Origin: Strigops habroptila
Lineage: Eukaryota > Chordata > Aves > Psittaciformes > Psittacidae
Reading direction: 5' to 3'
Assembly: GCF_004027225.2 (NCBI RefSeq)
Contig: NC_044296.2
Location: 3,268,796 to 3,332,795 of the forward strand
DNA: 64,000 nucleotides
Below the pieces are notes generated by a model. That model was not told the DNA's origin, searched no databases, and worked only from the letters and a program-made list of their open reading frames with translations. The translations under genes were made by a program, and so were the position numbers. The stretch's first letter is position 1. Each line of letters opens with the position of its first letter. Positions 18,101 to 63,328 of the stretch are shown piece by piece.

Positions 18101-19429
18101 AGCCCACTTTGCTTCCTGTTAATGATTTAGTTTCTTTTTACTGGTAAAGACACCACATCTGATCTGATGCAATTTCCACTGTGCAGATCAGCTTTAGGAG
18201 TTGCTATGTTATCTCGCTGCCTTTCCACACTTCCACCAAAACTGAAACTTGGCCTTTTTGCTCGTTTTCCTCACAGATTTATTAAGTGAGGAGAGAGCAG
18301 CTGAGCAACCCACTCTTCCTCTTTTAGATAAACCCCAGTTTTTAAAAGAGCAGTGCGAAAAACTTCTGAAGCACTAAAGGTTTTCTCCTCGGCAGTACCA
18401 CTGCCCATGGGTTGGCATACGGCTGTGCTGGGAAACGATCTGATGCTGAAGCTAAGAGAACACGAGGAAAAGCAACTCCAACCTCTGTAAGGATGATACC
18501 ACGCCAAAGATCTTGAGTGAATGAAGCCACTGCAGACAGACCCTTGACTCCATCGCAACACTGAACGTTGACTGGACAAAGCCGCTGCAGAGCATCACTT
18601 TGTCACGTAAAACCAGGGCTTGCCCACCCGGAGCAGGGTGCCACTTTGGCGCTGGAGGCATCAGCACCATGTGGTTCCTCAGCCACGCAGAGCACTGCAG
18701 AACTCATTTTACACTGTGTGCAGATTGCTTCTCCAGGACACAGAGATTTTAGGTGAATTCCCCAGCAACGTGACTCATCAAGAGGCTTTTTTTAAGTTCC
18801 TATTTCCTAAACTGCTATTTGCTTTACTACACCATCTGCACTTGCCTGCGGGTGGGAAACCCCCTTGTACAGAGTAAGAAAGCACTAGAGTATGTGCTTA
18901 GAGACACGTTACCCGTGTTTCTGCCAGCTTCCACACCACCCAAGGCTTCATCTTGGCTCAGAGCCGCCAGTGCCAGAGCATCCCTAGACAGTCAAGTCCC
19001 TCCATGCTCCTTCACCGCCCATGGCAGGGCAGGAATGGCAACAGCCTCTCCCAGGAGGGGATGTGCCTTGTGAAGAAACAAGTCAGCACTGCAGCAGGGT
19101 TAGCTTTACAGCGACAGAGAGAAGACCCCCGCGACACGCCTGGCCCGGATCCAACACCCACCCCAGCCCCACAGCCACCCACTCGGGACACCTACAGAGC
19201 TGCGACCCCCGCGAAGGCTCCCGGCGGCACCGCCACCTCCTCCTCCTCACAGCGGTCAGGGCGGGACGGGCCCTGTCACGGCTCGCGTGGACGCAGACGG
19301 GGCTCCTGTGCCAGGAGGGAATGATGAACAGAAACCGGCCGCAAGCGGAAGACGGGACGGGACGGGACGGGACGGGACGGGACGGGACGGGACGGGACGG
19401 GACGGGACGGGACGGGACGGGCACCGTTA
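15194..19429. other. ACSBG2 intron 1 (downstream of the promoter exon)
   Basis: This 4.2-kb intron is mostly unique sequence with no CR1. It contains a hydrophobic 103-codon minus-strand open frame at 17528-17839, which I do not recognise. On the minus strand it begins with a 10-bp unique stretch and then the GACGG pentamer array. Confidence 0.6.
19351..19420. repeat. (GACGG)14 pentamer microsatellite
   Basis: Fourteen perfect tandem copies of GACGG on the plus strand, read equally as GGGAC. The plus strand has GGG runs with 2-nt loops, a G-quadruplex pattern; the minus strand has the matching CCC runs. It lies in ACSBG2 intron 1, starting 10 bp inside the intron. Confidence 0.98.
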
Positions 19430-19430
19430 C

Positions 19431-19560
19431 CTCAGGAGCCGGCAGGCACGCGGCGACCACCACGCGGCGCGACAGCCACGCGGGGCCCTTTAGGGCGCGC
19501 CTGGACTGGGGGGGCGTGGCCACGGCCCAGAGTGGGCGGGTCCTTCCCCATAAACCCCGC
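19431..19560 (-). other. ACSBG2: ACSBG2 non-coding exon 1 (5' boundary uncertain)
   Basis: On the minus strand the sequence ends CTCCTGAG|gtaacg, a good donor inside a GC-rich promoter. It is the only plausible first exon upstream of the ATG exon at 15193. The transcription start is not visible; 19560 is an estimate from the positions of the GC boxes and CCAAT box. Confidence 0.6.
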
Positions 19561-19700
19561 CCCGTCGGCGCTCGAAAGACCCGCGCGGCCCCGCCATTGG
19601 GCGAGGCGGGTGTCGGAAGGCGGCGAGGCCCCGCCCCTGCTCCGCTCCCTCGGGCGGAGGTCACCCGCGGTCGTTGCCCTGCGCCGCTGTCGGGCTCCGG
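19490..19700 (-). promoter_or_regulatory. ACSBG2: ACSBG2 CpG-rich promoter
   Basis: The GC- and CpG-rich sequence contains several GC boxes (gggcgg and ccgccc types near 19510-19560 and 19603-19640). It also has an inverted CCAAT box (ATTGG at 19596-19600), which reads CCAAT in the direction of ACSBG2. A lone RFX half-site GTTGCC lies at 19673-19678. No convincing TATA box is seen. Confidence 0.65.
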
Positions 19701-19876
19701 TCGCCGCGTCCGGGCACCGCTCCAGGGGTCCTGGCCTTGGCGTGGCGGTACATTGGATCCGAGGCCGCTGTACTATGGGGGGGGGGGAGCGGTGTGGGGG
19801 CTGCTGGAGCGCGGCCCCAAACAAAGCAGCCCCGAACAAACCGCCCCCGTGGTTGGTGTTTTCTGACCACAGCATA

Positions 19877-20230
19877 AGGATGGGGAGCTGTTGGAGCAAG
19901 TCCAGAGGAGGACACGAGGATGATCAGGTGCTGGAGCACCTCCCGTGTGGAGCCAGGCTGAGAACATTGAGGCTGTTCAGCCTGGAGTAGAGAAGCTGCA
20001 TGGAGCCCTCAGAGCAGCTTCCAATGTCTGAAGGGGGCTACAAGGATGCTGGAGAGGGACCGTCATCAGGGACTGTAGCGATAGGACAAGGGATGGTGGG
20101 TTTAAAGTGAAACAGGGGAAGTTCAGGTTAGATATAAGGCAGAAGTTCTTCCCTGTGAGGGTGCTGAGGCGCTGGCACAGGGTGCCCAAAGAAGCTGTGG
20201 CTGCCCCATCCCTGGCAATGTTCAAGGCCA
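19877..20230 (+). repeat. CR1 LINE fragment, plus orientation (left half of an inverted composite)
   Basis: It reads in the sense direction from gagctgttggagcaag to ccctggcaatgttcaaggcc and stops before the CR1 3' end. It is followed without a gap by a CR1 3' end in the opposite orientation. It begins about 180 bp upstream of the ACSBG2 promoter. Confidence 0.92.
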
Positions 20231-20371
20231 CCAAATGGTTTGGGTTGGAAAGGACCTTAAAGCTCATCCAGTTCCAACCCCCTGCCACAGGCAGGGACAC
20301 CTTCCACTAGAGCAGGTTGGTCCAAGCCCCTGTGTCCAACCTGGCCTTGAACACTGCCACGGATGGGGCAT
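20231..20371 (-). repeat. CR1 LINE 3' fragment, minus orientation (right half of the composite)
   Basis: It starts at ccaaatggtttgggttgg and runs inward to gaacactgccacggatgggg. The last part is complementary to the end of the preceding plus copy, so a short hairpin is possible. Confidence 0.92.
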
Positions 20372-20428
20372 GCCATGAGAGAAGCTCCTGCCAGAGGACA
20401 CAACAGCACCGAGGATGTTGCAGCTTCA

Positions 20429-27718: not shown

Positions 27719-28092
27719 TTGTGCTCCAGGCCCTGCACCAGCTCCATTCCCTTCTCTGGCCCCGCTCCAGCACCTCAATACCTCTCTTGTCGTGAGGGGC
27801 CCAGAACTGACACAGGATTTGAGGTGCAGCCTCGCCAGTGCCCAGTGCAGGGGGACAGTCACTGCCCTGGCCCTGGCTATGCTGTTTCTGGTCCAGGCCA
27901 GGATGCTGGTGGCTTCTTGGCTGCCTGGGCACAATCTGCTCATGTTCAGCTCCATCAATCAGCACCCCCAGCTCCTTTCCCATGAGCTGTTTCCAGCCGC
28001 TCTTCCCCAAGCCTGGAGCATTGTGTGGGGTTGTTGTGGCCCAAACGCAGGACCCAGCACTTTGCCTTGTTGAACCCCATCCCATTGGCCAC
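27719..28092 (-). repeat. CR1 LINE fragment (more 5' part of the 3' region), next to the RFX2 island
   Basis: The reverse-oriented sequence contains gcccagaactgacacaggat, then ccagtgcagggggacagtcact and ccaggccaggatgctggtggc. This part of CR1 lies upstream of the segment found in the other copies. It ends about 70 bp before the CRE of the RFX2 promoter. Confidence 0.85.
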
Positions 28093-28163
28093 ATTCGCCC
28101 TAAAGCAGGACCCCGGCCCCTGCTTCTCCATCAGCTCCATCCGTCCCCGCGTTTTGATGGCTG

Positions 28164-28171
28164 TGACGTCA
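28164..28171. promoter_or_regulatory. Palindromic CRE
   Basis: TGACGTCA inside the 12-bp palindrome TGTGACGTCACA (28162-28173). The centre CpG is intact. It lies 6 bp from the X-box at 28178. Confidence 0.75.
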
Positions 28172-28177
28172 CAGCTG

Positions 28178-28191
28178 GTCGCTATGGAAAC
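28178..28191. promoter_or_regulatory. RFX X-box-like site in RFX2 promoter
   Basis: GTCGCTATGGAAAC fits the two half-site X-box pattern GTNRCY-(1-3 nt)-RGNAAC, with spacer AT. It suggests autoregulation or cross-regulation by RFX factors. Confidence 0.6.
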
Positions 28192-28589
28192 GGTTTGATG
28201 TCATGGGGAGCATCAGAGCCCTCATCACCCCGCCCCGCCCCCCCCGGCCCCCCGCGTTCGGGCCGTTCCCCGGGATCCAGCGGGAGCTTTTTAACGCTGA
28301 ACGCGGGGGACAAACTAACTTTTCCCCGGTCAGCGCGGGCCGCCGCGCGCCCGCCCCGCCCCGCGCCGGAGCGCCAAAGCGCGCGCCAACTCTCCGCCCC
28401 GCCCCTCCTCCCCATCGCCATTGGCCCAACCCTCTTCTCGGCCCGCCTCTCTCATGACAGACAATCCATTAGCCAATGGAAGGCGGCACCTCCTCCGGCC
28501 ACGCCTACTCGCCCCTCGGCGCGGATTGGGCTGGGCCGGGCGGTGACGTGAAGGGAGAGGGTAGCAACAGTTGCCTCGAGACCCGGCGG

Positions 28590-28700
28590 CAGGCGCCATA
28601 GTGACCGTAGCCCTGGAGACTGTTACTTGCCAACGGGAGCAACGCGCGGCCCCGGCGGCCGGAGCCCAGCGCAGCCCGCGGCGCCCGGCGGGGAGGGCAG
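28590..28700 (+). other. RFX2: RFX2 non-coding exon 1 (start approximate)
   Basis: The exon ends in the donor GGGAGGGCAG|gtgagc at 28700, inside the CpG island, and contains no ATG. It would splice over about 30 kb to the coding exon near 58856. The transcription start is not determined; 28590 is an estimate. Confidence 0.55.
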
Positions 28701-29044
28701 GTGAGCGGGGGCGCGGCGCCCCGCCGGCACTGGGGGGGGGTCCCACCCGCTGAGGGGTCCCGCCCGCTGGAGGGGGCCCGCGGCGGGGTGACGGGGGTGT
28801 GGGGGGGGCGAGTCGCTTCGTGGCTTCCGCGGGGGTCGGAGAGGGGGGGACACGCGGGGCCCCCTCCCCTACTGCATCTCCCTACTCCGTCCGTCCCACC
28901 CCGGCCTCGGAGCGTTTCCCCGGGTCTCAGTGCCGCCGGGGCTCAGGGCGCTGCCCCCGGAAAGTTGGGAGCGGCGCAGCGATACTCCCCCCCCGCTGCG
29001 GTGCTGCTGCCCGGGGCTCTGCGCGCTGCCCGGGACCGGAGTGC

Positions 29045-29074
29045 GCGCACACACACCCCACACACACACACCCC
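29045..29074. repeat. CA-rich simple repeat in RFX2 island
   Basis: A CA tract interrupted by CCC, just downstream of the exon 1 donor. Confidence 0.85.
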
Positions 29075-29250
29075 GCCTCCGGGGGGGGCCGCCACCGGCT
29101 TCTGCCCGGCTCGTCCCTTCCCGTAACTCCGAGCGCCGCGTTGAGCGAAGCGCGGCGGGTGCCCGGAGGCGCGGCTCCCTGCGAGCCTCCGCTCTGGAGC
29201 CGGGGCAAGCTGGGAGGGGACGCGGCCGGCAGCAGCTCTGCCTCCGCTCG

Positions 29251-32200
29251 CCTTCCCTCCGCTTCCCCCGCGCACTCCTCCCAGCCCCTCTGGGGGCTCC
29301 AGCTCATCCCTCTAGTTTGCCAGAGCTCTCACATCCCAGCGCTTGCTTTCTTGTTAGTCTTAGAGACGAGCGAAAATTGCATTAAGACCTATTCTTAAGC
29401 CTCTGCCGTCTGTTCCTGACTTGGTTTCTCGTGTTTGTTTTGAATAAAGTGTGTTGTGAAACAAGACTCATCTCCTGTTAAAGCAGGATTTTGTGTATGT
29501 GCCTATTTCAAGTGTGAGTTCCTGCAGTCTGATTAAATCTTTCCATTCTTTTTACTTAGGTATTACTCTGAAGTCTCTATTTTGGGTTTTGCTATTGAAA
29601 GAAGCAAAACTTACTAATTAAAGAGCAAGGTGGAGTAAATAGTAATTTTATTAAATCTACTTCATGGGGGGTTTTGCACCTGGAATATCCTTAAACTGAC
29701 CATCCTCAGCTTGAGATCCGTTTGCTAGTCAGGGATTTATTCACCTGCTTCTGGCCAAACTTTTCAACTCAATCTCGGTACAAATCATTTGAGAATAGAG
29801 AGAAATTGCTGGCTAAGAAAAAAGATCAGTCTCAAAATACAAACTTTAATCTCCCAAAGCTTGGGGGTCCTTCTCTGCCTCTGCTGTTTGCAGTGTGAGT
29901 TTGCCTGAGTCACTTTAAGATGCATTCAGCCTTATCTTAGGTTTTATTTTCAAGTTACATGTCTGGTGGAAGGCGTTTTGGGAGGCCTTCTCGTGGTTAC
30001 GTGGTTCAGGATGGAGGTTTCTGTTTCAGTTCTAGATGTCTGAATTCAGGTGAGGAAAACCACACTTGCAGGACCATCGGTGTGCACCGACGTGCTGTTT
30101 TTTGTAGGTTTAAGCCTATGTTCTCAAAGCTGTTCCCATAACGGTGAGGTTTGGAAATGCCTTTTTAAACAGAATCTGGGTTCTCAGGTAGCTGCAGGAT
30201 CTCAGCCTTAAGGGTGAAGGCGCACACAAAAGCAGGCGAGAGGTTGACAAGTGGAATTTCTTTGTCCCTGCTGGCTTTCTGCAAAACAGGAATGATCCCA
30301 GTGCGTTTGTGGTGGTGAGAGCATCCTCTGGCACAGAGGAACGTGAGGACCAGGTCCCTCAGACTTCGCAGGGGACTCCCCCAGACAGTCCCTGCTTTGC
30401 ATTTCCCTGCTGTGTCATTTGCATCTCATGAATTCCTCTCATAGCACCGTGTCCCTGTCCTGGGGCCCAGCTGCCAGCTCCGCTTGCTCCGGAAGGCTCT
30501 GCGCAAGCGTGAAATCCCAGCGCTGTGCTACAGCAACCAGAGAGGGTGCAAGACACTGGGGGCCATAGCCCAGTGCCGCAAATCCTCCCTTAGCATCAGA
30601 TCTGCCCTCTCAGAGAGCAGTTTGGAGGTTTGGTGTATAGATTTGGAGGTCTGGTGTTTAAGTTTGGAGATTTGATGTATAAATGCCCATGTTCATCAAG
30701 GGACTTGGCATCATGCGTCCTGTTGAGTCCCCCAAAGCAGAGGTGAGAGGGAGGGACAGGGTTGCCCATCTCAAGGCTTGAGGCTGAGTGTGGTCTAGTG
30801 AGAGTCACATGTGAAGTATGTGAAGGTACCTTAGAAAACCACTTTCTCCAGACTTTTGCATGTGTAAATCTGAACTGGTAATTTAAGGCCATAATCATTG
30901 AAGCTGTGAGCAGCCTCCGATGACATTGACTGACGTGTGTCCTGTATTTGTCTGGGTAAATTCTCCACTTGGGAGTACTCATTGCCGCTAAAAGTCACCT
31001 CTGGACTTGTTACCCTCTTCGTCACAAAACATCTTCAGGGCTGCCGTGAATGTAAAGCCTCAGTCAGTGGTTAATAACTGTGGCTTTTCCTTGCTCGAGC
31101 GCAGTGAAATAGATGGCGCCAGTCATTGTCTTTAAATAGTCTCATGCTTGTAACACCTCGGAGCACTGACAGCTGTTATGTTTAATCACAACATGTTTTC
31201 ACTTTAATAGCGGCCGGTAAACAGAGCTGCTTTAACGCATTCCAGCAGATTTTCCTTGTTCAGTTTTAGCACTCCAGAGCTAAAAGCATCTTGCGGAGTC
31301 ACAGCGCGGGGAGGGCTCTGCTGATTCAACAGGCGGATCTCACCCGCTCCGCTTTGCAGCCAAAGTTGCTGCTGGAGGCTGCCGAGTTATATTTAAACCA
31401 AGTTTTCCCTCTTTCCCTCCCTCGGAACAAATGCCAGCGCAGTTCCCGCCGGGCACCCGCCAGCTGGAACACAAGGCTTGCTGTGGGTGCCAGGGCTTGC
31501 CGTGGGTGCTGCGCGAGGAGCACCCAACCTCCCCCTGCGCCCGTGCCTGCGGCTCCCTGATCCCGGGGTATGTTTCTGCTGTTTGAAGCATATGCAAAGC
31601 TTCTGTCTGTGATCTGCGCTTCGAGACGTGGGGTTTTGTCTTATTTGGCCTGGCAGTTCTTTATTTCTTTGTTCAAACACAAATCCACCTTATTGTCTAA
31701 GAATGTGCTGGCTTTCTCACGTTATAGGCTATCTCTGTCTAGGTAGTGTATGAACTAATTATGCTATAAATACATAGATAGACAACAAAAGGTTTCTTTA
31801 ACACAAGCTACATACCCCTTAATACACTAAACAAAGAGAAATCCTTCCATTTGGGGCCCTACCTACAGACAGTCACTTTTTTAACATAGAAAGCACAGGG
31901 GAAATTATTTCAGTGCACAAACTGTTTGCACTTAGGGGGACAGTTAAAAAACCAAACCCACCTCCAGCTTTGGGTGGTGTTTTCCTGATGTCTCTATTTC
32001 CCCCAGCTAAACCAGAAGGACTAGAAAAGTTTAAATGTCCTTAATTCAGGTGGCTTGTTCCGGCAATATGTAGTTATGTGTAGACATGTGATTTCATGTC
32101 AAATGAATGCAAAAATCTTCCTCTTCCAATGATGCTCCTCTTGCTTACAGCACTCTGGGGTTAGGCAGTACACATCCAGCATTCAATTTACAAAGAGTAT

Positions 32201-46006: not shown

Positions 46007-47064
46007 CCGTATTCCACACAGCTTCAAGACTTCAGTGCTGGAGTCTGCCATAAGGCAACAGGCAGGATGGGCAAAGGAACCATTAAGTAAAGGAGCTTGT
46101 TTTGAGTTTAATTTTCTCTGCAGTGAATGCAAATGCTACTGGATCACCTCAACCAACTGCACGTGGTGTGGGGTTTATCCCTTTGCGGGGGAGATTCTTC
46201 AAGTTATGCCAGTTCTTAATTCTCAGTTGTCACTTTTAAGTTGCCAAGATGTGCCCCAGTCTTGGCTGTCTTGCAGGAGTATCTGCTCTCTGTTGAATGT
46301 ACCCAGTGCTATGACTTCTTATTTTTTATCCAGTGGGCGAGTGATGCCTGCTTTCCGTGACATGTGCCTCAGAGAAGCAAATACCTCGCTGCAATTTGTG
46401 CTGTGCCCTGGGGGCCTGTGCCATTAGCAGAGAAACACCCAAAACTGTGGCAAAGGCAGTGCTAAAAGCACATCCACATCTGGAAATCAGCAACCTCGGT
46501 GAAAGCTCTGTCAGTAATCACTGTGTAAGTGAACTGATGGGATGCTGGTGCCTAAGCTTGGATTTAAAAGTTGGAGGAATAAATTCTGCCTAAATTCTGC
46601 TCCTATTGAATTGGGGAACCTGTGACAGCAGCTTGTGGCCTTAATGATGATTAGCAAACACAGCAGAACTTTTCTGTTTCAGATCATACCACTGAGCTCA
46701 GGACAATGATCTGTTTCCACTACCCCAGCAAAAGCCTGTCTCTAGGCTTGATTTCTACCGAGAGCAACTTCTCCCTTAACATTCTCTGACTGTTTGTAGG
46801 TTTTTGATTATGATTAATTGCCTCAAATTTTAACGTAAAAAATGCAAAGTAGAGAATTTAAATTAGTTTCCTACGTTCGTGGAATTAGAAGAAAGCATCT
46901 TTCTGGTGAGTTTCTCCTCTTCATCAAATCAGAGGACACTCACAAACCACACCCCCCCTCTCCCAACAGCTCATTTCGCAGCCTACCTTCCCCCAGCTCA
47001 CACATACCACTAAGGAAAGCAAACCTGTTTTATGTAAGCTAAATCCTACTTTAAAGGGATCTAA
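46007..47064. other. RFX2 intron 1, no recognised gene
   Basis: Unique sequence between two CR1 copies. No exon or regulatory cluster is recognised. Confidence 0.55.
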
Positions 47065-47297
47065 ATTGAATCCCAGCCTGGTTTGTGTTGGAAGAGATCT
47101 TAAAGCTCATCCAGCCCCAACCCCCTGCCACGGGCAGGGACACCTTCCACTAGAGCAGGTTGCTCCAAGCCCCTGTGTCCAACCTGGCCTTGAACACTGC
47201 CAGGGATGGGGCAGCCACAGCTTCTCTGGGCACCCTGTGCCAGCGCCTCAGCACCCTCACAGGGAAGAACTTCTGCCTGAGAGCTCATCTCAATCTG
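47065..47297 (-). repeat. CR1 LINE 3' fragment upstream of the internal island
   Basis: From attgaatcccagcctgg to gagctcatctcaatctg. It lies about 350 bp before the CpG-rich internal island. Confidence 0.94.
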
Positions 47298-47684
47298 TTG
47301 GGAAACCTCTAGGAATCTGCACATAGGTGGTGGTGGTGGGGGAATAAAGTTGCAAGAGGACTTGCTCAGGGACTCGTGTTTGCAGAGAGCTACTGCTGGT
47401 GCTTTCCCTGGGCAGCAAACTGCAGACACAGCATGGGGGGGTGGTGGGGTGTGTGTGTGTGCTTGCATAATGACCAGTTACAACCAAAAGAGGTTAACTC
47501 CTTAATAATGTTTGTAAAACCAAACAAACTAAAGACGGTTCCTTTCCTGGGCATCTGCTTTAGAGCAGATTGAACTGCCCAGCCTGGTAATCCGTTTATT
47601 CTGAAATAACAATTAAATAAAATAAAGCCCAAACAAAGCCCCGGAGCCCGCGGTCCCATCCCCGTCCCTCGTCCCCCCCTCGCA

Positions 47685-47698
47685 GTTACTATAGCAAA
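47685..47698. promoter_or_regulatory. RFX X-box-like site
   Basis: GTTACTATAGCAAA has half-sites GTTACT and AGCAAA with spacer AT, close to the X-box consensus. Confidence 0.55.
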
Positions 47699-47813
47699 GA
47701 AATTATTTGTCAGTCCTCCCGGGCTGCTGAAAATACCCGCTGACATATTTAGTGAGCGCTCGCGGCGGGGAGGGCGGGCGGGGATGGGGATGTTTGGTTT
47801 GGGAAGCGCTCCC

Positions 47814-47832
47814 CGCGTTGCCGAGCAACGCG
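47814..47832. promoter_or_regulatory. Palindromic X-box, perfect 8+8 inverted repeat
   Basis: CGCGTTGC-CGA-GCAACGCG. The core GTTGCC-G-AGCAAC consists of two perfect RFX half-sites with a 1-bp spacer, so both strands read nearly the same. Confidence 0.7.
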
Positions 47833-48093
47833 CCCTGGACACGGGAGGGGACCGCGTCGCCCCTGGCAACCGCTGTTGCTCCCCAAACAGCGCTGGCCGC
47901 GCATCCTCCCCCTGCATCGGCGGCTTCCTCCGCCTGCGCCGCGCTTCCGAGGGGCTGGGGGGGGGGGGGTGTCCGTCCCTGGAACCCCTCAAAGTAGTGT
48001 CAGGCTTAGGATTCAAGTCAACTTCCCCCTCCGTGAGTTTAGGATTCAAAAGGGCTTAAATCTTCCCTCTCGGTTTCACAGACTGCGAGCACA

Positions 48094-48178
48094 ATGAGCA
48101 CAGCACTGGAGGATGAGCTGTTAAACTGCGGCTTTGCCTTGCCCACTCAGTGGATGGAGAATATCGAGTGGTTTGTGG
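48094..48178 (+). CDS. Candidate alternative RFX2 first coding exon, or first exon of a small nested gene
   Basis: The ATG at 48094 has A at -3. The frame is open for 28 codons, beginning MSTALEDELLNCGFALP, to a donor-like GTTTGTGG|gtgaca at 48178. Upstream, the frame is closed by TAG at 48040. Joined to the RFX2 acceptor at 58856, the leftover G gives GTG-GCA-GTG-AGC-ATG, in frame with the RFX2 start. That would add about 31 residues. A competing model splices to a nearby acceptor-like tttag at 48371 and ends at 48586. I do not recognise the peptide, and neither model has transcript support here. Confidence 0.35.
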
Positions 48179-50284
48179 GTGACATCTGAACCCCTCCCTG
48201 GCCAGGCTGAGGACAGAAGGGGCAATGGGCTGAGACGCTGGTCAGAAGGAGCCACCCCCCTCCTCCTCATGTCTCCAAGCCAAACCCACTGCCCACAGGA
48301 ATTTATTGCCTGGATAAAAGGCATAATTCACTTCTAGTTCAGTAACAGAACAGTCAATTCTCTTTCTTTAGGAGAGTGGGAGCTATCAGAGCAGTTGTTG
48401 CAAGCTCTTCTCTTCTCCCATTCATCTAGAATACGGTCTGTCCTATTACTTTCCTCACCAAAAATACAGCAGGGCTTTTCTCCAAGAGCAGAATATTCAA
48501 ATACATATTCCCAAACTGCGTTTCTAGGGCATCTGAAGCAGCCTTCTCATTTCTTTGCCTTTCCAGGAAGAATTGTGTGTCTCTAGATAGTTTGTGTCTT
48601 CTGTCTGGGGTGGTGTTAGTGCCAGAGTCTGCCGTACCAGTCATCAAGAGCTGTATGAACCCTCAGTTTCTACAGGGAAATACCCAGCTCCTTGCACCTC
48701 TTCTCTGTGCACTCTTACCACTGCACTGGTCTGGGAAGCAATTGCTCCTGTGCCATGACTTGCTGAAACATTCACTGAATACTGTGGTGGAACAGTCGAA
48801 GAACAACCATGAGTTTAGTTTTGGTCCCCCCATGCCAACCTGTGACTGATGAGCACATTTGGACAAGTGGATTTTGAACTCGGGGCCATTGTACTGCGCA
48901 TGTAGGAGTAGAATCATCAACAAGGAAATCCCAAACTCTTGTGAGAAGAGTCTGCATGTCCCCATGAGGATGTTTTGGCACCGTCACAGGAAGGGTAAGA
49001 CTCTCTTTTCTGGGCAGTACAGGAGCAGAGCCCAGACCTCTGTGGTGGTTCTTCCCGAGTAACACATTGGTCAGGGCAATGCTCCCAGGAGTAAGCCAAG
49101 AGCACCTTGGTGGGGTCAGAGCTCATGCAGATGTTTGAGAGAGGCAAAGAAACTTGCCCTTAGTGTCAGGAGAAAGCAAAGAAGCCCTCTTCTTCCTCCT
49201 CCTCTTCCTCCTCCTCCTCGTGCCTGCCCAGGCACTACCTGCCTTTCAGAGGGGAACAGTGACCACTTCTTCTTTCTCTCCTTGCTCCAAGTCTCCTTTC
49301 GGGCTTCTCAAACTCCCTAGTACATACCCACAGCAACAACAATGCTCATGACCACTTGCTCATCCCCTAGAGCCACGTTTCGGTCTGTGCCATGATGGAG
49401 CCTCCAGAGCACTGACTCAGCTGAGGCTGTAAAATCTGAGACAAAGTTGTCTCTTCTCTGAATGGCCACAGATGATGTTTGTGGCTTGTTCTGCTTAACT
49501 TTGTTAAGCCCCACAATGCTTGTGAATGGTGCTGTATAAATAAATAACGACATACTGGGCTCTGTTGGCAGCAGTTGCTTCTGTATTTGCTGGTCACTGG
49601 AGAGGCATGATGGAAACAGCCACATCTAAATGAAATCCTGCAGCAAATCTACTTCACACTTAAAGTGACATATTCCATAGTTTTCTGCCATAGGACAAGC
49701 TATAAAAGCTGGTCTTGCAAAACCACAGTCGAGTACCAAGGTTTGCAGTTCCTTGTCCCAAAACGAGCCCAGCTCAGTGCATGTGTGTGGGGGGAATTAG
49801 CTGTACCCAAGTACCTGGGATCATCCTGAGAGCACACAGAAGCAGAGCTACAGACCACAGGGCTCAAATAACCAGATATTCTGGTCTGGTTGACTAAGAT
49901 TTGGCCTACACAGAAAGCTTTGTAATGCTTTTGTGCCAGGTTTTCGCTTGATGTGCTGTATTTCCCCCGGTGAATCACAGCTTGGGAAAACCCTGCAGTG
50001 CACCCGTTAAAAATGTGGGAAAATGATTAATTTGAGCCCAGAAGTTGTGCTTGGTTTTGCCAGATAGCACCAAGGCTTATGCTGGAGCTGGTATCTGAAG
50101 GGCCTGGACATGGAGTACAGTGTGGTGTGTGACTTGTAATTCCTGTAATTCCTTCTTCCAGAAGCTTCCTTACTGCTCATCAGATATCAAGATGTTGTTT
50201 CTTGAGTGACATTATTTGCCATCATTGTAGCAAACCTTTTCTGAAGTCAAAATTCAGCTAGTTAAGAGGAAGGAAGCAAGTCTT
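48179..50284. other. RFX2 intron 1 after the internal island, no recognised gene
   Basis: Unique sequence with a CT-rich tract at 49186-49219. An open frame follows an acceptor-like site at 48371 and runs to 48586. An AATAAA lies near 49537. No recognised family. Confidence 0.5.
49186..49219. repeat. Polypyrimidine (CTT/CTC) tract
   Basis: 34 bp of only C and T on the plus strand, with CCT and CTT triplets. Confidence 0.9.
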
Positions 50285-50429
50285 CCACCCCTGGCAGTGT
50301 TCAAGGCCAGGTTAGATGGGGCTTGGAGCAACCTGCTCTAGTGGAAGGTGTCCCTGCCCGTGGCAGAGGGTTGGAACTGGGTGAGCTTCAAGGTCCTTTC
50401 AACCCAAACCAGGCTGGGATTCTATGAGT
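50285..50429 (+). repeat. CR1 LINE 3' fragment, plus orientation
   Basis: From ccacccctggcagtgttc to ccaggctgggattctatgag, with an intact 3' end. Confidence 0.94.
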
Positions 50430-52389
50430 TTCAAGCACTTGTTGGACCTTTTCTTTAGGACAAACAGCTGGGACTCCCAGGTAAGTCTATTGGGAGCTTG
50501 AGGGTGAAACGCACCCAGCAGTGAATAGGCTGCAGGCTGGCCCCTGCATTTCTGAGCACCAGAAGGGATGCATTCAGATCTGAAGGAACCCAGTCCTGGC
50601 TTTGACACTTATAGAGTATTCCTCTTATTAACCCAGAAGGAAAACAGGACAGGTTTTTGTGTGGGAGGGAGGTTCACAGCATTACATTGCCCGTGTTCGG
50701 GTCTGAGATCCGTGCACGTGGGATTTGTCCACAGGCTGCTGCCAGCAACATTAAACCATCACAGCTTCTGCTCTTCAGTCTCAGCTGGCTCTTAAGGAAA
50801 CTCCACATTACACAGCCAGCACGGACACATTCCTCCCTCTCTTCTGCCTCTCTGAAAGTTACTTTTAAAGACACAGCAAAGATTAGTGAACTGCTGTTAC
50901 ACAACAGTTACGTGTGTCCGTGTGTGTATATATATTGCTTGATTTGAGTCCATAAAATCTAATTAAAGACTGAGTGTATATTTGTATTTTGGTATATTAT
51001 TAACTTGCTAATAAAAGCCGTTTCCAAACTTGTATTTTTCCATGAGGACCAGGTTGCTGAAAAAAGAAAAAACGAGAAACCAACCAACCAACCAAGCCCC
51101 AAAGCAGCTCTACACTGCCTGCTGCCCTTGAGATGTGTGCTTTGGGTTTATCTGTGTTTCCAGGGAACTAGAACTCTTGGACAAGCAACGTTTGCTTCTG
51201 GTTTAAATTCATTTAACCTCATCAGTGGAAGGGTCTGGTGCCTTCTCTGTTTATAACATTTCACAGCAATATAATAAGCAGCCTCTCCAGAATCAGCTTC
51301 TTATCAGGTTCTTTGTCATGTTTGCTTCCCCCTTCCATCTCCTCCACTTCCTGCCACTTACTAAAAGGCTAAAGGTTGTGACATGAGGTTCAGGACACCC
51401 TTGAGATGCAGAGGCTCAAGTGCCAGCCCCTGCTCACCTGGCAGAGCTCGCTTTCAGCTGCGATGGGCACGAGGGCACCTTCACCCTGCCCAGAGCCCAG
51501 AGCTGGCCCAAACCTCTTCTCTGTCCTCTGCAGGAAAGGGGGTGCTGGTTTAGGAGGGGCTGGTTGTGAAAGGTGAAAGCTGCTCCAGCCCTTGGGATGC
51601 AGGTGGTACATGAGTGCTTGTGTCTGCTGGTGGGGATGCCCAGCACCATCCTCGGTGTTGCTGCAGGCATTCTGGGCTGTCCTCGGTATGCAATGAGGGG
51701 TTTGGATGGAGGTCAAGGTTTTGATGAGCCAAGATCTGTCCTGTCTTAACCTGCTCCAGCATTTCCTGGCTCCCTCTAAAAGCCAGAACAGCAGGTTCTT
51801 CTTCCAGGGCTTTTAGAGCCGCTTTAAACCCAGGAAATATGCAGCTCTCCTAAGTCCAGCTGGTATTGTGACTGTGCCAGTTGTACAACATTCTGGACAA
51901 GGATTGAGTTGAGGTGCTCAACAACCAGACTTCCAGATGCTTTGAGTTGCACCCGTCGCTAACAGGGCATCCCCATTATGGTCGGAAGGAAGAGGGAATT
52001 CCTAAACAGGGGTGCTGGTAGAGCAGGTTCTCTTTGGTTCAGCCATCCAAAAGGGAAGAGTTTCTCTTGGTTTCGTGGATGGATGAGCTGGAATCATGTT
52101 TTTCCATGAGCTGCCAAGCTGCAAGTGCCTGCTCGCATGCTCCTCCAGCTTTCGAGGGGTTGGGGCAATGTTAAAAAAAAATCATTAATATTTTCCTGAT
52201 TTGGAATTTCAGGGGAACACCTGGTGTTTATTCTAGATGTCAGGCTTTGGAGACACACGCAGCGGGGATGAAGGATGTGTGTGGAGGCAGGAGGCAAGCT
52301 GGGGCTGATACAAGTGTTTGCCTCAGTTCTGCTCTGAGGTGGTGTAATTCACTTGGTCTCATTTTCATTCACATCCAATAAAAAGATTT
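50430..52389. other. RFX2 intron 1, no recognised gene
   Basis: Unique sequence with a short TG/TA repeat near 50917-50936 and an (ACCA)n stretch near 51078. No exon is recognised. Confidence 0.55.
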
Positions 52390-58855: not shown

Positions 58856-58858
58856 CAG
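58850..58858 (+). promoter_or_regulatory. RFX2: NAGNAG tandem splice acceptor of the RFX2 start-codon exon
   Basis: The sequence ccccagcag gives two acceptors three bases apart, just before tgagcATG. Either choice changes only the 5'UTR in the usual transcript. Confidence 0.6.
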
Positions 58859-58863
58859 TGAGC

Positions 58864-58968
58864 ATGCAGAGTTCAGAGGGTGGATCAGACTCAGCAGCTT
58901 CTGTGGCACTTCACACCTCAGCATCAGCCCAAGCTCCGGTGGTGCAGCTGGTGCCATCATCTCAGCAG
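58864..58968 (+). CDS. RFX2: RFX2 first coding exon
   Basis: The start ATG is at 58864; the donor is TCTCAGCAG|gtaacg. It encodes 35 residues, MQSSEGGSDSAASVALHT to VPSSQQ, in phase 0. The N-terminus MQ.SE.G.D is shared by RFX2 and RFX3. Confidence 0.96.
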
Positions 58969-61900
58969 GTAACGTTTGCACAGCTGGGAATGGGGTTTCC
59001 ATGCAGAAGAGACTGGTTTTACTGGCAGATGTATTTTAATCCAGGGGATTTATATAGGGGAGAGGCCAGGTTGGACAGGGCTTGGAGCAACCTGGTCTAG
59101 TGGAAGGTTTCCCTTATGTGGCAGGGCGTTGGAACTGGACGAGCTTTAAGGTCCCTTCCAACCCAAACCAAAATCCCAAACCTGGGATTTTAGGATTGTT
59201 ACTCAGCTCCTTGAGGTAGTGGGGAGAACCTATTGCTGGACTGTGATAAAGGCCACAGATATTTCCTGTGTTAGCCCTACAAATGGGCAAGCTATAAAAC
59301 ATGGGATTTAGATCTTAACTTGACTACCTGAGGAAGCTACTTCATGCAGTCTGGTGTTTGCTTCAGTGTAAGATCCTGTGGTCATTATTTGATGTGTCAA
59401 TAAAAGCAGGAGAAAACGAAACAGTCCTTAAAGGCATCTCTGCAAATGAGGTACTACACTCAACAGAGAAGAGGTGAGGGAAGTGCTAAGGCAGGGAGAG
59501 GGTGGAGAAGCCACATGCTGGTCTCTTCCTTTGGTAGGTGGATCCTGACATTTTCAGTTGTGGGGGGGGGATGTTCATGACTGATACATGAGTGTGATGC
59601 ACTTGGGAGGTCTCTTGATGGGAGAGAAATGATAGCTTCCACTGATGAATGAAACTGCCTAGTTGAAAATGGGAAGGGTTAAGTAAAACTGGTTCCTTTT
59701 TGTGCCTTCTGGGGAACTATCAAAAGAAGTTTTTGTCGCAGGAAGCTGGAAGGATAAGAGGATGGGTGGGTGTAACTTAGCTACACCCTTTCCAACTCCC
59801 AAGTGAACAGAAGTAGCTGCCATTGGATGCTGATGAAAAGGAACAATTAGAAGTTGTGAATTGGTAGGAGCATCTCCCCAGCAGACGTGGACATTCACGT
59901 CGCTGCCCAGCTCGCTGTCAGCTCTCAAACTTCCCATCTTGGATTTCTCTGGGCAACGTTTCTTGTTCGTGTTGGAATGATGTGGATACCACTGAGCAAT
60001 AGTGTCAAGTATTTTAGGGATCGTCAGTCATTTGTGCGAATTTGACTGTGGCAACATGTTAAAGAAGTTTAGAAACCCCATTGGCTTTGGATTATGAAAT
60101 TAGCCATCCAGCCTGTGCCGGTGCTGTCATCATGACACGGAGTATGGAGTGGAACTCCATGGATTAAGGAAGACCCAGAGGATCACGGAAAATTACTGAA
60201 GAGGAGAAGCATCCAGAGCCTTCCCTTCTCACCAGCAGGACAAAGAAAACCCTAGGGATGAACTGCTGGCAGCATGACTGGTGTGATGCTGAAGCCTTTG
60301 GTGATGTTGATCACTGGTCTACCTTTCAGTGTGAGCAAAGGCTGTACGAACAGGACGGCCTCATCTTACAGGTTGGGGATGAATAATTCCAGCCAGAGGG
60401 CTAAAAATCAGAAGCTTATGTGTATAAGGTAGCCAGTAATTGTCAAGGTCTCTTCTAGGATTCATGTGGGATTCTTTGGCAGCTTTTTGTTCTGTTGGCC
60501 CAATCTGTTGGGTATTTTTAAAGCCTCAACCCACAGAGGATGACTATCTCCTTGGAGAAGGTCCTCATTGGTTTAAAAGACCATACTGATACTTGGCTTT
60601 GGGCCTCACTGAATCGTTTCTTTCCATCCACCACATCCCCATGCTTGTTTTGTTGGATCTGCAAGGTGCTGAGCACTCTACGAGGTGTGTGTCCAACCTC
60701 AAACTGAATGCCAGCACAAAGAGCAGGGGGACGATGGAAATGACAGTGAAAAGGTAGAAGACAGTGACCACCACAAGGGGAGGCAACTCAGTTTTGTGCC
60801 CTTGGTGGCACTGAAGGGAGATGCTTCATGGTAGCTTTGGTGCTGGTAGAAACTGTAAGGGCTGTGGCACTTGGAGAGTGGGATTTCTTGTTGCAGGAGG
60901 CAGAGGGTGGTTTGGAATAGCAGCCCTAAGAGAAGAAACTTTGCAGCCACAGGAGGAAAATGCAAATGTGTGAGGAGTGGTTCTCGTTTAGCTGCGACTG
61001 AACCTCATGTTGAGCTGTTAGTTGTTATTTCCTTGTGTGAAGACTTCAAGATGATCCATGTCAGAAAATGTTGATCCATCTTTTCCCAAGTTTGGGGTAC
61101 TGGGTTAAGGTGGGTGTCTGGTGCAGATTGCATTGGAAGGATGGGAACTGCAGGGATGCTAAGTAAGGGGTACTAGTGCTACTGGAGTAAGAGGCAAGCT
61201 TTCCATGAGAGTTTGAAAGAGAATACCTAACTCACCTGTGTTACGCACTGAGAGTAAGTGTCTGTTACTGTATCTTCTTCTTTCAGAGGGTTTTGGTCCA
61301 AGCCACAGGCTCTGCTCCCAAAGGAGCGCAGATGCAGCAAATCTCTGTTCCCAGAGTTCAGCAGGCTGCACAACAGGTAATACCTCTGGGGCAAGACACC
61401 ACGCAGGGCCCCCTGTGTTCCCAGGACCCCACATCCCACACGATATCTGAAACAGTGCCAGATAGCTGCTTAGGAAAATCCATGCTTTTGATTAGAGAGC
61501 CCTGGAGATCACTGTGAGAACAGCTTTCACCATCTCTCTTCCTTTCTTAGACTGAGGGCAAAAGAACCTCTCAAGATATTTAAAGTTTAGAAAGAACCTT
61601 CAGTGTCCCAGTTGTCTTTCATATATCTGAAGATTTGATGGATGCTTTTCATTGCCATTTAAAAGCAGTCCTCCTCTGTAAAGACTTTTTTAGAGGCAGA
61701 GTGTTTGGAATTCTTTTTTAATGCCACAAATAAATGTACTGACTGCGTGTGGCTTCATAGAAAGGTGAGGTGACAGAGAGCCATGCAAGTGTTCTTATTT
61801 ATTTGAACTTTGCCTTTTGCAGTCCTTGTTTCCTAAGAAACCAGGCACATGTGGTGCTGCTTCATGTGGACAGTAAGCCTGACTCTCTTGGCTTTTCCCT

Positions 61901-63328
61901 CTAGCAAGTCTTTCTTTGGTTGCTCAGTTTCAGCAAAGAAAACCCCCAACTTGACTGAGGACAACTGTGTCCCTCGCAGATGGACACTGCACCCTCCTCT
62001 CTGAAGGAAAGGCTGCAGCATGATCTCACCCTTATTAGTCAGCGGAGAACCAGCCCTGAGACATGTGTGCAGAGGAAACCCAGCTCCATTGTTTCCACTG
62101 CTCATGGAGCAAGGACTTATTTATTCATTTTAATTTGACCTTTAAAAATAAATATGTCCTTTGGGATTCCTAAGCAGGAGGTGGGGGGGGAGTGGTGGTT
62201 TGGTTTGGTTTTCCTTCTCTTTTAAAAAGAAAACCTAAATGTCAACATAAGGTTGACAAATTTCAAGGTTGAAAGTTGTTTAAGGCTGTAATATGCAATT
62301 TCTCCCGCTGTTCCCAAGCAATCCCTAACTCAAGTTTCTGATGCTTGTTTCAGGTGCAAGCCGTGCAGCACGTATATCCATCCCAGGTCCAGTATGTGGA
62401 AGGAGGAGAAGTTGTTTATACCAATGGAACCATGTAAGAGTCCCTTGTTAGCAGTAGCAGAGCCCTGTTCCCCTCACAGCTGGGTTGAGCCCTTTAGTCC
62501 TCCCAGGCTCTTTCCACCCTGGCACTGCTGGCACTTTAAAAGGACGAAGAGGAGGAACAGTTGTTTCTCATGCCATGTTACAGGGGTAGTTTCAGCCAGA
62601 CTCCAGCCTTGGAAGAGAAGTTCTCATGGAGGGACTATTCTCCAGGGAATCATACCACCTTAAAGTGTCAGGTATTCTCCTCTGCCCAGCCCATTGTGTG
62701 GTGATATGGAGCGGCTTTAGGAACCAGAGCAGAACTGCTAGGGAAAGAAGAGGGGGTTGTAAGGTTCCCTCTTCCTCCTGCTGCCCTCAGGGATGCTCTC
62801 AGCCTTCCTCACTGAAATTACCTCAAGTGGCTGCAGAGCTGCTCCTGGGCTCTGCTCTCACTGTGGCCATGGGCCTTTGCTCCAGGGCAGTCAGAGGACT
62901 GATCACCATTGTCAGGACTGATGCCTACAGCACAGGTTTCAAATTCAATGGAACAAATCCAACCTTTTTCCAAAGGTGTTCCTGATTTCAGAAACTGTTG
63001 TCCATGAGACTAGATCTTGGAGCTCCTCTCCACCTCCTGACCCTATTGTTCCTTTGACAGACGAGCTGCCTACTCCTACAACACGGAAGCTCAGATTTAC
63101 GCCCCCAGCAGCGCAGCATCCTACTTCGAACCGCAGGGAGGTGGAGCTCAGGTGACTACAGCGGCATCCTCCTCTCCTACAGCCATTCCCTCTCACAACA
63201 TGGTGGGCATCACCATGGACATTGGGGGAAGTCAGATCCTCTCCGGCTCGGGAGCCTATCTCATTCATGGGGGGATGGAAAACACTAGACATTCTCTGTC
63301 ACATACTTCACGCTCCTCTCCAGCAACG
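58864..63328 (+). CDS. RFX2: RFX2, regulatory factor X2 (first four coding exons; 3' part outside the window)
   Basis: RFX2 is a nuclear transcription factor that binds X-box motifs and drives ciliary and spermatid genes. Exons 58864-58968, 61287-61376, 62354-62433 and 63061-63328 join in phase to 543 nt, 181 codons. The protein begins MQSSEGGSDSAASVAL. It continues with RVLVQATGSAPKGAQMQ, then VQHVYPSQVQYVEGGEVVYT and YAPSSAASYFEPQGGG. After MVGITMDIGGS comes AYLIHGGMENTRHSL, ending SHTSRSSPAT. This matches RFX2 rather than RFX1 or RFX3: the GSAPKGAQMQ segment is RFX2-like and the RFX3 counterpart is a Gln/Val-rich run. The region is the glutamine-rich activation domain. The DNA-binding domain follows beyond the right edge. 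Confidence 0.96.
59062..59198 (+). repeat. CR1 LINE 3' fragment in RFX2 intron 2
   Basis: From gaggccaggttggacaggg to the 3' end aaacctgggattttaggatt. It begins about 90 bp after the exon donor. Confidence 0.92.
59199..61286. other. RFX2 intron 2, no recognised gene
   Basis: Unique sequence; a minus-strand frame near 60565-60965 is hydrophobic but has no recognisable domain. Nothing else is recognised. Confidence 0.6.
61287..61376 (+). CDS. RFX2: RFX2 second coding exon
   Basis: The acceptor cttctttcag precedes AGGGTT; the donor is CAACAG|gtaata. It encodes 30 residues beginning RVLVQATGS and ending RVQQAAQQ, in phase 0. It corresponds to human QRVLVQAAGSNPKGAQMQ. Confidence 0.96.
61377..62353. 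other. RFX2 intron 3, no recognised features
   Basis: About 1 kb of unique sequence with no repeat or exon recognised. Confidence 0.65.
62354..62433 (+). CDS. RFX2: RFX2 third coding exon
   Basis: The acceptor cttgtttcag precedes GTGCAA; the donor is GGAACCAT|gtaaga. It encodes VQHVYPSQVQYVEGGEVVYT, almost invariant among RFX1-3. It ends two bases into a codon completed as Ile in the next exon. Confidence 0.97.
62434..63060. other. RFX2 intron 4, no recognised features
   Basis: 0.6 kb, unique; nothing recognised. Confidence 0.65.
63061..63328 (+). CDS. RFX2: RFX2 fourth coding exon
   Basis: The acceptor ttcctttgacag precedes ACGAGC; the donor is CAGCAACG|gtatgt. It encodes RAAYSYNTEAQIYAPSS, then MVGITMDIGGS and AYLIHGGM, and ends SRSSPAT in phase 0. 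The next exon, starting near the conserved LEMAIENL in human, is not in this window. Confidence 0.96.

Follow-up and report, generated by a model that had tools for sequence, protein, structure and literature searches.

A gene that looks like a bird RFX2 occupies the + strand of the window, the whole 64-kb stretch of DNA analysed here, which is part of a 5.6-Mb contig in a genome of 1.15 Gb. The gene was located by tblastn with the human RFX2 protein as query. This search placed the start codon of the first coding exon at 58864 and further exons near 61284, 62351 and 63062. The acceptor of the first coding exon, exon 2, ranks 13th among the 4958 AG sites on the + strand. In a comparison of the other three exons than that near 62351 with the Pfam family RFX1_trans_act, the match was strong for the exon near 63062 (E 3.5e-23), clear for the exon near 61284 (E 3e-7) and weak, under the curated cut-off, for the first coding exon (E 0.0018). 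Donors were scored with a human matrix, and the four candidate donors at RFX2 exon ends reached 7.3-11.0 bits. In the 46 bases examined for the end of the exon near 61284, every donor scored 4 bits or less.

In a search for a neighbouring gene to the left, ten frames were chosen by hand from a list of 314, and none of them matched a Pfam family at E 0.01. Another strong CpG island, with 93 CpG and a GGGAC tandem run near 19355-19421, lies at 19061-19900 and is perhaps the promoter of a leftward gene. Pieces that we take, by eye, to be CR1-like repeats are found at about 47050-47290, 20140-20380 and 59060 onward, and repeats of this kind point to a bird.

The island that is likely the ordinary RFX2 promoter lies upstream of exon 2 and would contain a non-coding exon 1 (Table 1). 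It holds eight GC boxes, four CCAAT boxes, RFX half-sites at 28563, 28570 and 28638, and MYB-type sites at 28631 and at 28568, the latter overlapping the half-sites at 28563 and 28570. A donor at 28701 (10.98 bits, rank 13 when the 6672 GT sites of the two strands are taken together) would close exon 1.

Table 1. Features of the RFX2 locus, in coordinates of the window
Feature	Position	Strand	Details
CpG island, likely the canonical RFX2 promoter, with a non-coding exon 1	28041..29440	+	GC 0.70, CpG o/e 0.86, 147 CpG
Intron-1 CpG island	47611..48130	.	520 bp, GC 0.61, CpG o/e 0.84, 40 CpG
Two overlapping GC boxes (GGGCGG)	47772..47781	+	starts 47772 and 47776
RFX half-site cluster	47817..47880	.	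four half-sites in 64 bases
Alternative weak donor TCC/GTGAGT	48033..48038	+	4.37 bits, rank 300/3352
Putative 28-codon exon, not supported as coding	48094..48178	+
Donor AGG/GTAAGA, first of at least 6 bits downstream of 47640	48995..49000	+	8.53 bits, rank 58/6672 (both strands)
RFX2 exon 2, usual start codon 58864	58856..58968	+	tblastn with human RFX2

The CpG island in intron 1 and its RFX-type sites

The original prediction described a compact CpG-rich island standing alone within an AT-rich intron. The island is indeed there, between the likely exon 1 and exon 2, and it is an intragenic CpG island as defined by minimum values for length (200 bp), GC content (0.55) and CpG o/e (0.6) and by a position within a gene. 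The intron was wrongly called AT-rich, since its GC content (0.474) is about equal to that of the window (0.483), and the island does not stand entirely by itself, since the same intron has a second, weaker CpG island at 31261-31690. The CpG o/e of intron 1 is 0.26 compared with 0.84 in the island, which suggests that the island lacks methylation in the germ line.

When the DNA from 47640 to 48586 was searched against the 1.15-Gb genome, in a search that passes over simple repeats and words of very high frequency, the single match was the query itself. The stretches that the island has in common with the canonical island are short, up to 19 bases among the matches listed. A repeat or a duplicated promoter was rejected on these two grounds, and a structured RNA by an Rfam search of the whole window that gave no matches at gathering thresholds. 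An antisense frame of 221 residues (47390-48055) has no Pfam family.

The GC boxes and RFX-type sites that had been reported for the island are also present (Table 1). Within the half-site cluster, the X-box GTTGCCGAGCAAC at 47817-47829 is followed by GGCAAC (47865) and GTTGCT (47875), and a looser second X-box lies at 47856. With strict X-boxes defined as inverted GTTRCY / RGYAAC half-sites 0-3 bp apart, GTTGCCGAGCAAC is one of two in the window. The window contains 102 GTTGCY/RGCAAC half-sites in all, and the cluster is their densest group. In 2000 islands simulated with a first-order Markov model, four half-sites were reached in 0.25%, a full X-box in 0.1%, and four half-sites within 80 bp in none. 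Because of this X-box group, RFX-family proteins (RFX2, RFX3) probably bind the island, through the X-box and the two nearby half-sites.

A passive CpG-rich patch that carries RFX-like sites by chance and has no function would gain some room from the simplicity of the Markov null and from the fact that the motif had been flagged before the simulation was run. However, we consider it unlikely, as CpG has been retained here against the background of a depleted intron and the half-sites are clustered.

The CpG content and the RFX-site cluster support a promoter- or enhancer-like element, and to this extent the earlier proposal of a hidden second promoter in RFX2 intron 1 is supported; the coding extension that was attached to it is not supported. 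Our favoured reading, which we hold to be likely on the sequence, is that 47611-48130 is an RFX-responsive intragenic CpG island that serves either as an intronic enhancer or as an alternative promoter whose transcript has a non-coding leader, the two being about evenly split. RFX proteins, once present in ciliated cells or testis, would occupy the island, in a form of auto- or cross-regulation. As a promoter, the island would start an RFX2 transcript whose non-coding leader is spliced to exon 2, and the usual protein would be made. As an enhancer, it would work on the promoter at 28 kb. The promoter version is not favoured further over the enhancer, since there is no strong donor nearby. What the sequence shows is the CpG island, the site cluster, the one genome match and the separate likely canonical promoter; that RFX proteins bind the island, that it is active and which of the two roles it would play are inferred.

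The paralogue RFX3 in this genome counts against the RFX-responsive reading. Of the seven matches in a genome search with the PF04589 profile, three fall on contig C21 (RFX2) and two each on C26 and C25. The C26 copy resembles RFX3, since one stretch of it is 97.7% identical to the human protein. For the 170 kb around this gene, three CpG islands of at least 300 bp are listed, each with at most one half-site and without an X-box. Two strict X-boxes are found in the same 170 kb, and one of them precedes the largest island by about 750 bp. Because both lie outside these islands, no RFX3 counterpart of the intronic X-box island of RFX2 is seen in this region.

The two RFX3-like copies lie on contigs of 101.9 Mb and 37.4 Mb and are 82% alike over 498 aligned bases that cover one exon and its flanks. 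Judging by the sizes of these contigs and by bird karyotypes, they may be the Z and W copies. The PF04589 search returned only RFX2 and the two RFX3-like copies and gave no match for RFX1, which may have diverged, may have escaped the search or may be lacking from the assembly.

Splice sites and reading frames near the island

All donors from 47640 to 48599 on the + strand are weak, scoring below 5 bits, and none of at least 6 bits occurs on this strand between 47640 and 48994, which counts against the promoter version of our reading. For the alternative weak donor at 48033, no ATG lies in 47951-48032. Thus RFX2 would keep its usual start codon if a leader beginning after 47950 were spliced at 48033, since such a leader contains no ATG.

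Just past the island are two acceptor-like sites, at 48371 and 48566, that rank 24th and 1st of the 4958 AG sites on the + strand and have no strong donor nearby. Farther into intron 1, an acceptor/donor pair at 50162-50480 scores 11.6 and 12.7 bits, and an unrecognised exon is possible there.

The original prediction offered a small nested gene as a competing model. Its second-exon frame is open as described, running from 48374 for 70 codons to a stop at 48586, and a nested gene or long non-coding RNA that started at the island could draw on the high-ranking acceptors at 48371 or 48566. However, the first exon of the gene would share the weak donor at 48179, no Pfam match was found, and the codon score of the second exon is -0.18, where the background averages -0.09 (sd 0.13), on a score that separates poorly, as RFX2's own exons range from -0.12 to 0.13. 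The nested gene was rejected on the absent Pfam domain together with the low value of this poorly separating score, and it fares no better than the coding extension because it has the same weak donor and a low second-exon codon score. We regard transcription of this kind, whether coding or not, as quite improbable.

In the coding extension, an alternative promoter would be followed by a first exon at 48094-48178 that adds about 31 residues to the N-terminus of RFX2. The ATG at 48094 has an A at -3, and the frame that it opens, MSTALEDELLNCGFALPTQWMENIEWFVGDI*, covers the 28 codons of the putative exon and is open for 31 codons before a stop. The arithmetic of the join is also right, as 48178 joined to 58856 places 31 codons in frame ahead of the RFX2 start. 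The absence of any ATG from 47791 to 48093 is favourable as well, whereas a transcription start before 47784 would leave two upstream ATGs in the leader. The codon score of the 28-codon frame is mildly favourable. It is reached by 36 of the 674 open 28-codon ATG frames on both strands of the window (itself counted) and by 7 of 165 within the intron on the + strand. Of the four RFX2 exons that were scored, three fall below it.

At 48179 there is a GT site, as claimed, but its strength is low. It scores 2.87 bits and ranks 530th of the 3352 GT sites on the + strand, well below the four candidate donors of RFX2 exons. The in-frame join had been taken as suggestive, but it is not special. Of the 491 ATGs on the + strand of the intron, 28 (candidate counted) begin a frame that stays open for 28 codons or more up to a donor of the same phase with an equal or higher score, and the chance of a qualifying ATG is 19% for intron stretches of 300 bp and 30% for those of 500 bp. 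Furthermore, seven ATG/donor pairs make an in-frame join when all donors of at least 2.5 bits from 47640 to 49000 are considered. One is the proposed pair, and two of the six others use the far better donor at 48995.

The 28-codon peptide has no Pfam family. Its only match in the PDB was a T-cell-receptor chain (E 0.76), and four weak matches were found in the 170 kb around RFX3 (best E 0.10); we take all of these as chance. Searched against the genome, the peptide had no second match at E up to 10, which speaks against an ancient exon common to the paralogues. A text search of the literature with the peptide gave no matches. Additionally, the passage of a survey of human RFX genes that concerns differing protein isoforms names RFX1, RFX4 and RFX8 and not RFX2 (PMC5838959).

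A frame beyond chance joined to a good donor, as expected of a coding first exon, is not found here, and the coding exon is not supported. The weak donor, the chance-level frame match, the other joining frames and the lack of a peptide relative in Pfam, the PDB and the genome all lead to this conclusion, and as a main reading the extension is rejected on donor strength and on the chance rate of such frames. We therefore think it very improbable that the island adds residues to RFX2. Equally improbable is an RFX-autoregulated second promoter in birds through which RFX2, as RFX proteins build up, would come to be made with an additional acidic-hydrophobic segment at its N-terminus that serves as a further activation domain.

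Comparison with known RFX2 promoters and intragenic islands

RFX2 is a regulator of ciliated cells. It is also a regulator of sperm formation (PMC4498915), and if the intron island is active, feedback on the gene would act directly at this element. In the titles and abstract openings among the matches listed by a literature search, an RFX2 intron-1 promoter was not named.

In mouse, the Rfx2 promoter is reported to be a CpG island of 0.5 kb that contains GC boxes and an NFY box together with three RFX half-sites and the same number of MYB sites; one MYB site sits inside the two upstream half-sites (Horvath et al. 2009, PMC2797782). The first exon of the mouse gene is non-coding, and a figure legend in the same paper has exon 2 drawn up to the translational start. 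The canonical island here is similar in layout, with two MYB-type sites where mouse has three. The intron island also resembles the mouse promoter in being a CpG island of about 0.5 kb with GC boxes and several RFX half-sites. However, it lacks a CCAAT box and contains a single MYB-type site (47683), and the mouse element is the main promoter, whose counterpart here is the island at 28 kb and not the intron island.

Autoregulation has been suggested for mouse Rfx2 (PMC2797782). In the human survey, RFX profiles were not over-represented among the regulators of RFX genes, and its authors judged autoregulation not to be common (PMC5838959), which counts against an autoregulatory reading of the island. 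As a distinct intronic X-box island, the element provides a concrete site for examining RFX2 autoregulation, suggested in mouse and judged uncommon in human.

For human RFX2, the same survey describes three start-site clusters, pA, pB and pC, with several starts in one gene and a tissue bias toward testis and brain. All three match one transcript, so several starts with a single protein have a precedent (PMC5838959). The parallel to the intron island is one of kind and implies no equivalence of position.

The intron island also resembles the orphan or intragenic CpG islands that lie within genes and far from the main promoter (PMC2944787, PMC8873577). Of human orphan islands, 42% have promoter evidence, or 60% when H3K4me3 is counted (Illingworth et al. 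2010, PMC2944787), and intragenic CpG islands are able to act as enhancers (Cain et al. 2022, PMC8873577). What sets the intron island apart from these is its dense group of predicted RFX sites within a gene that itself encodes an RFX protein.
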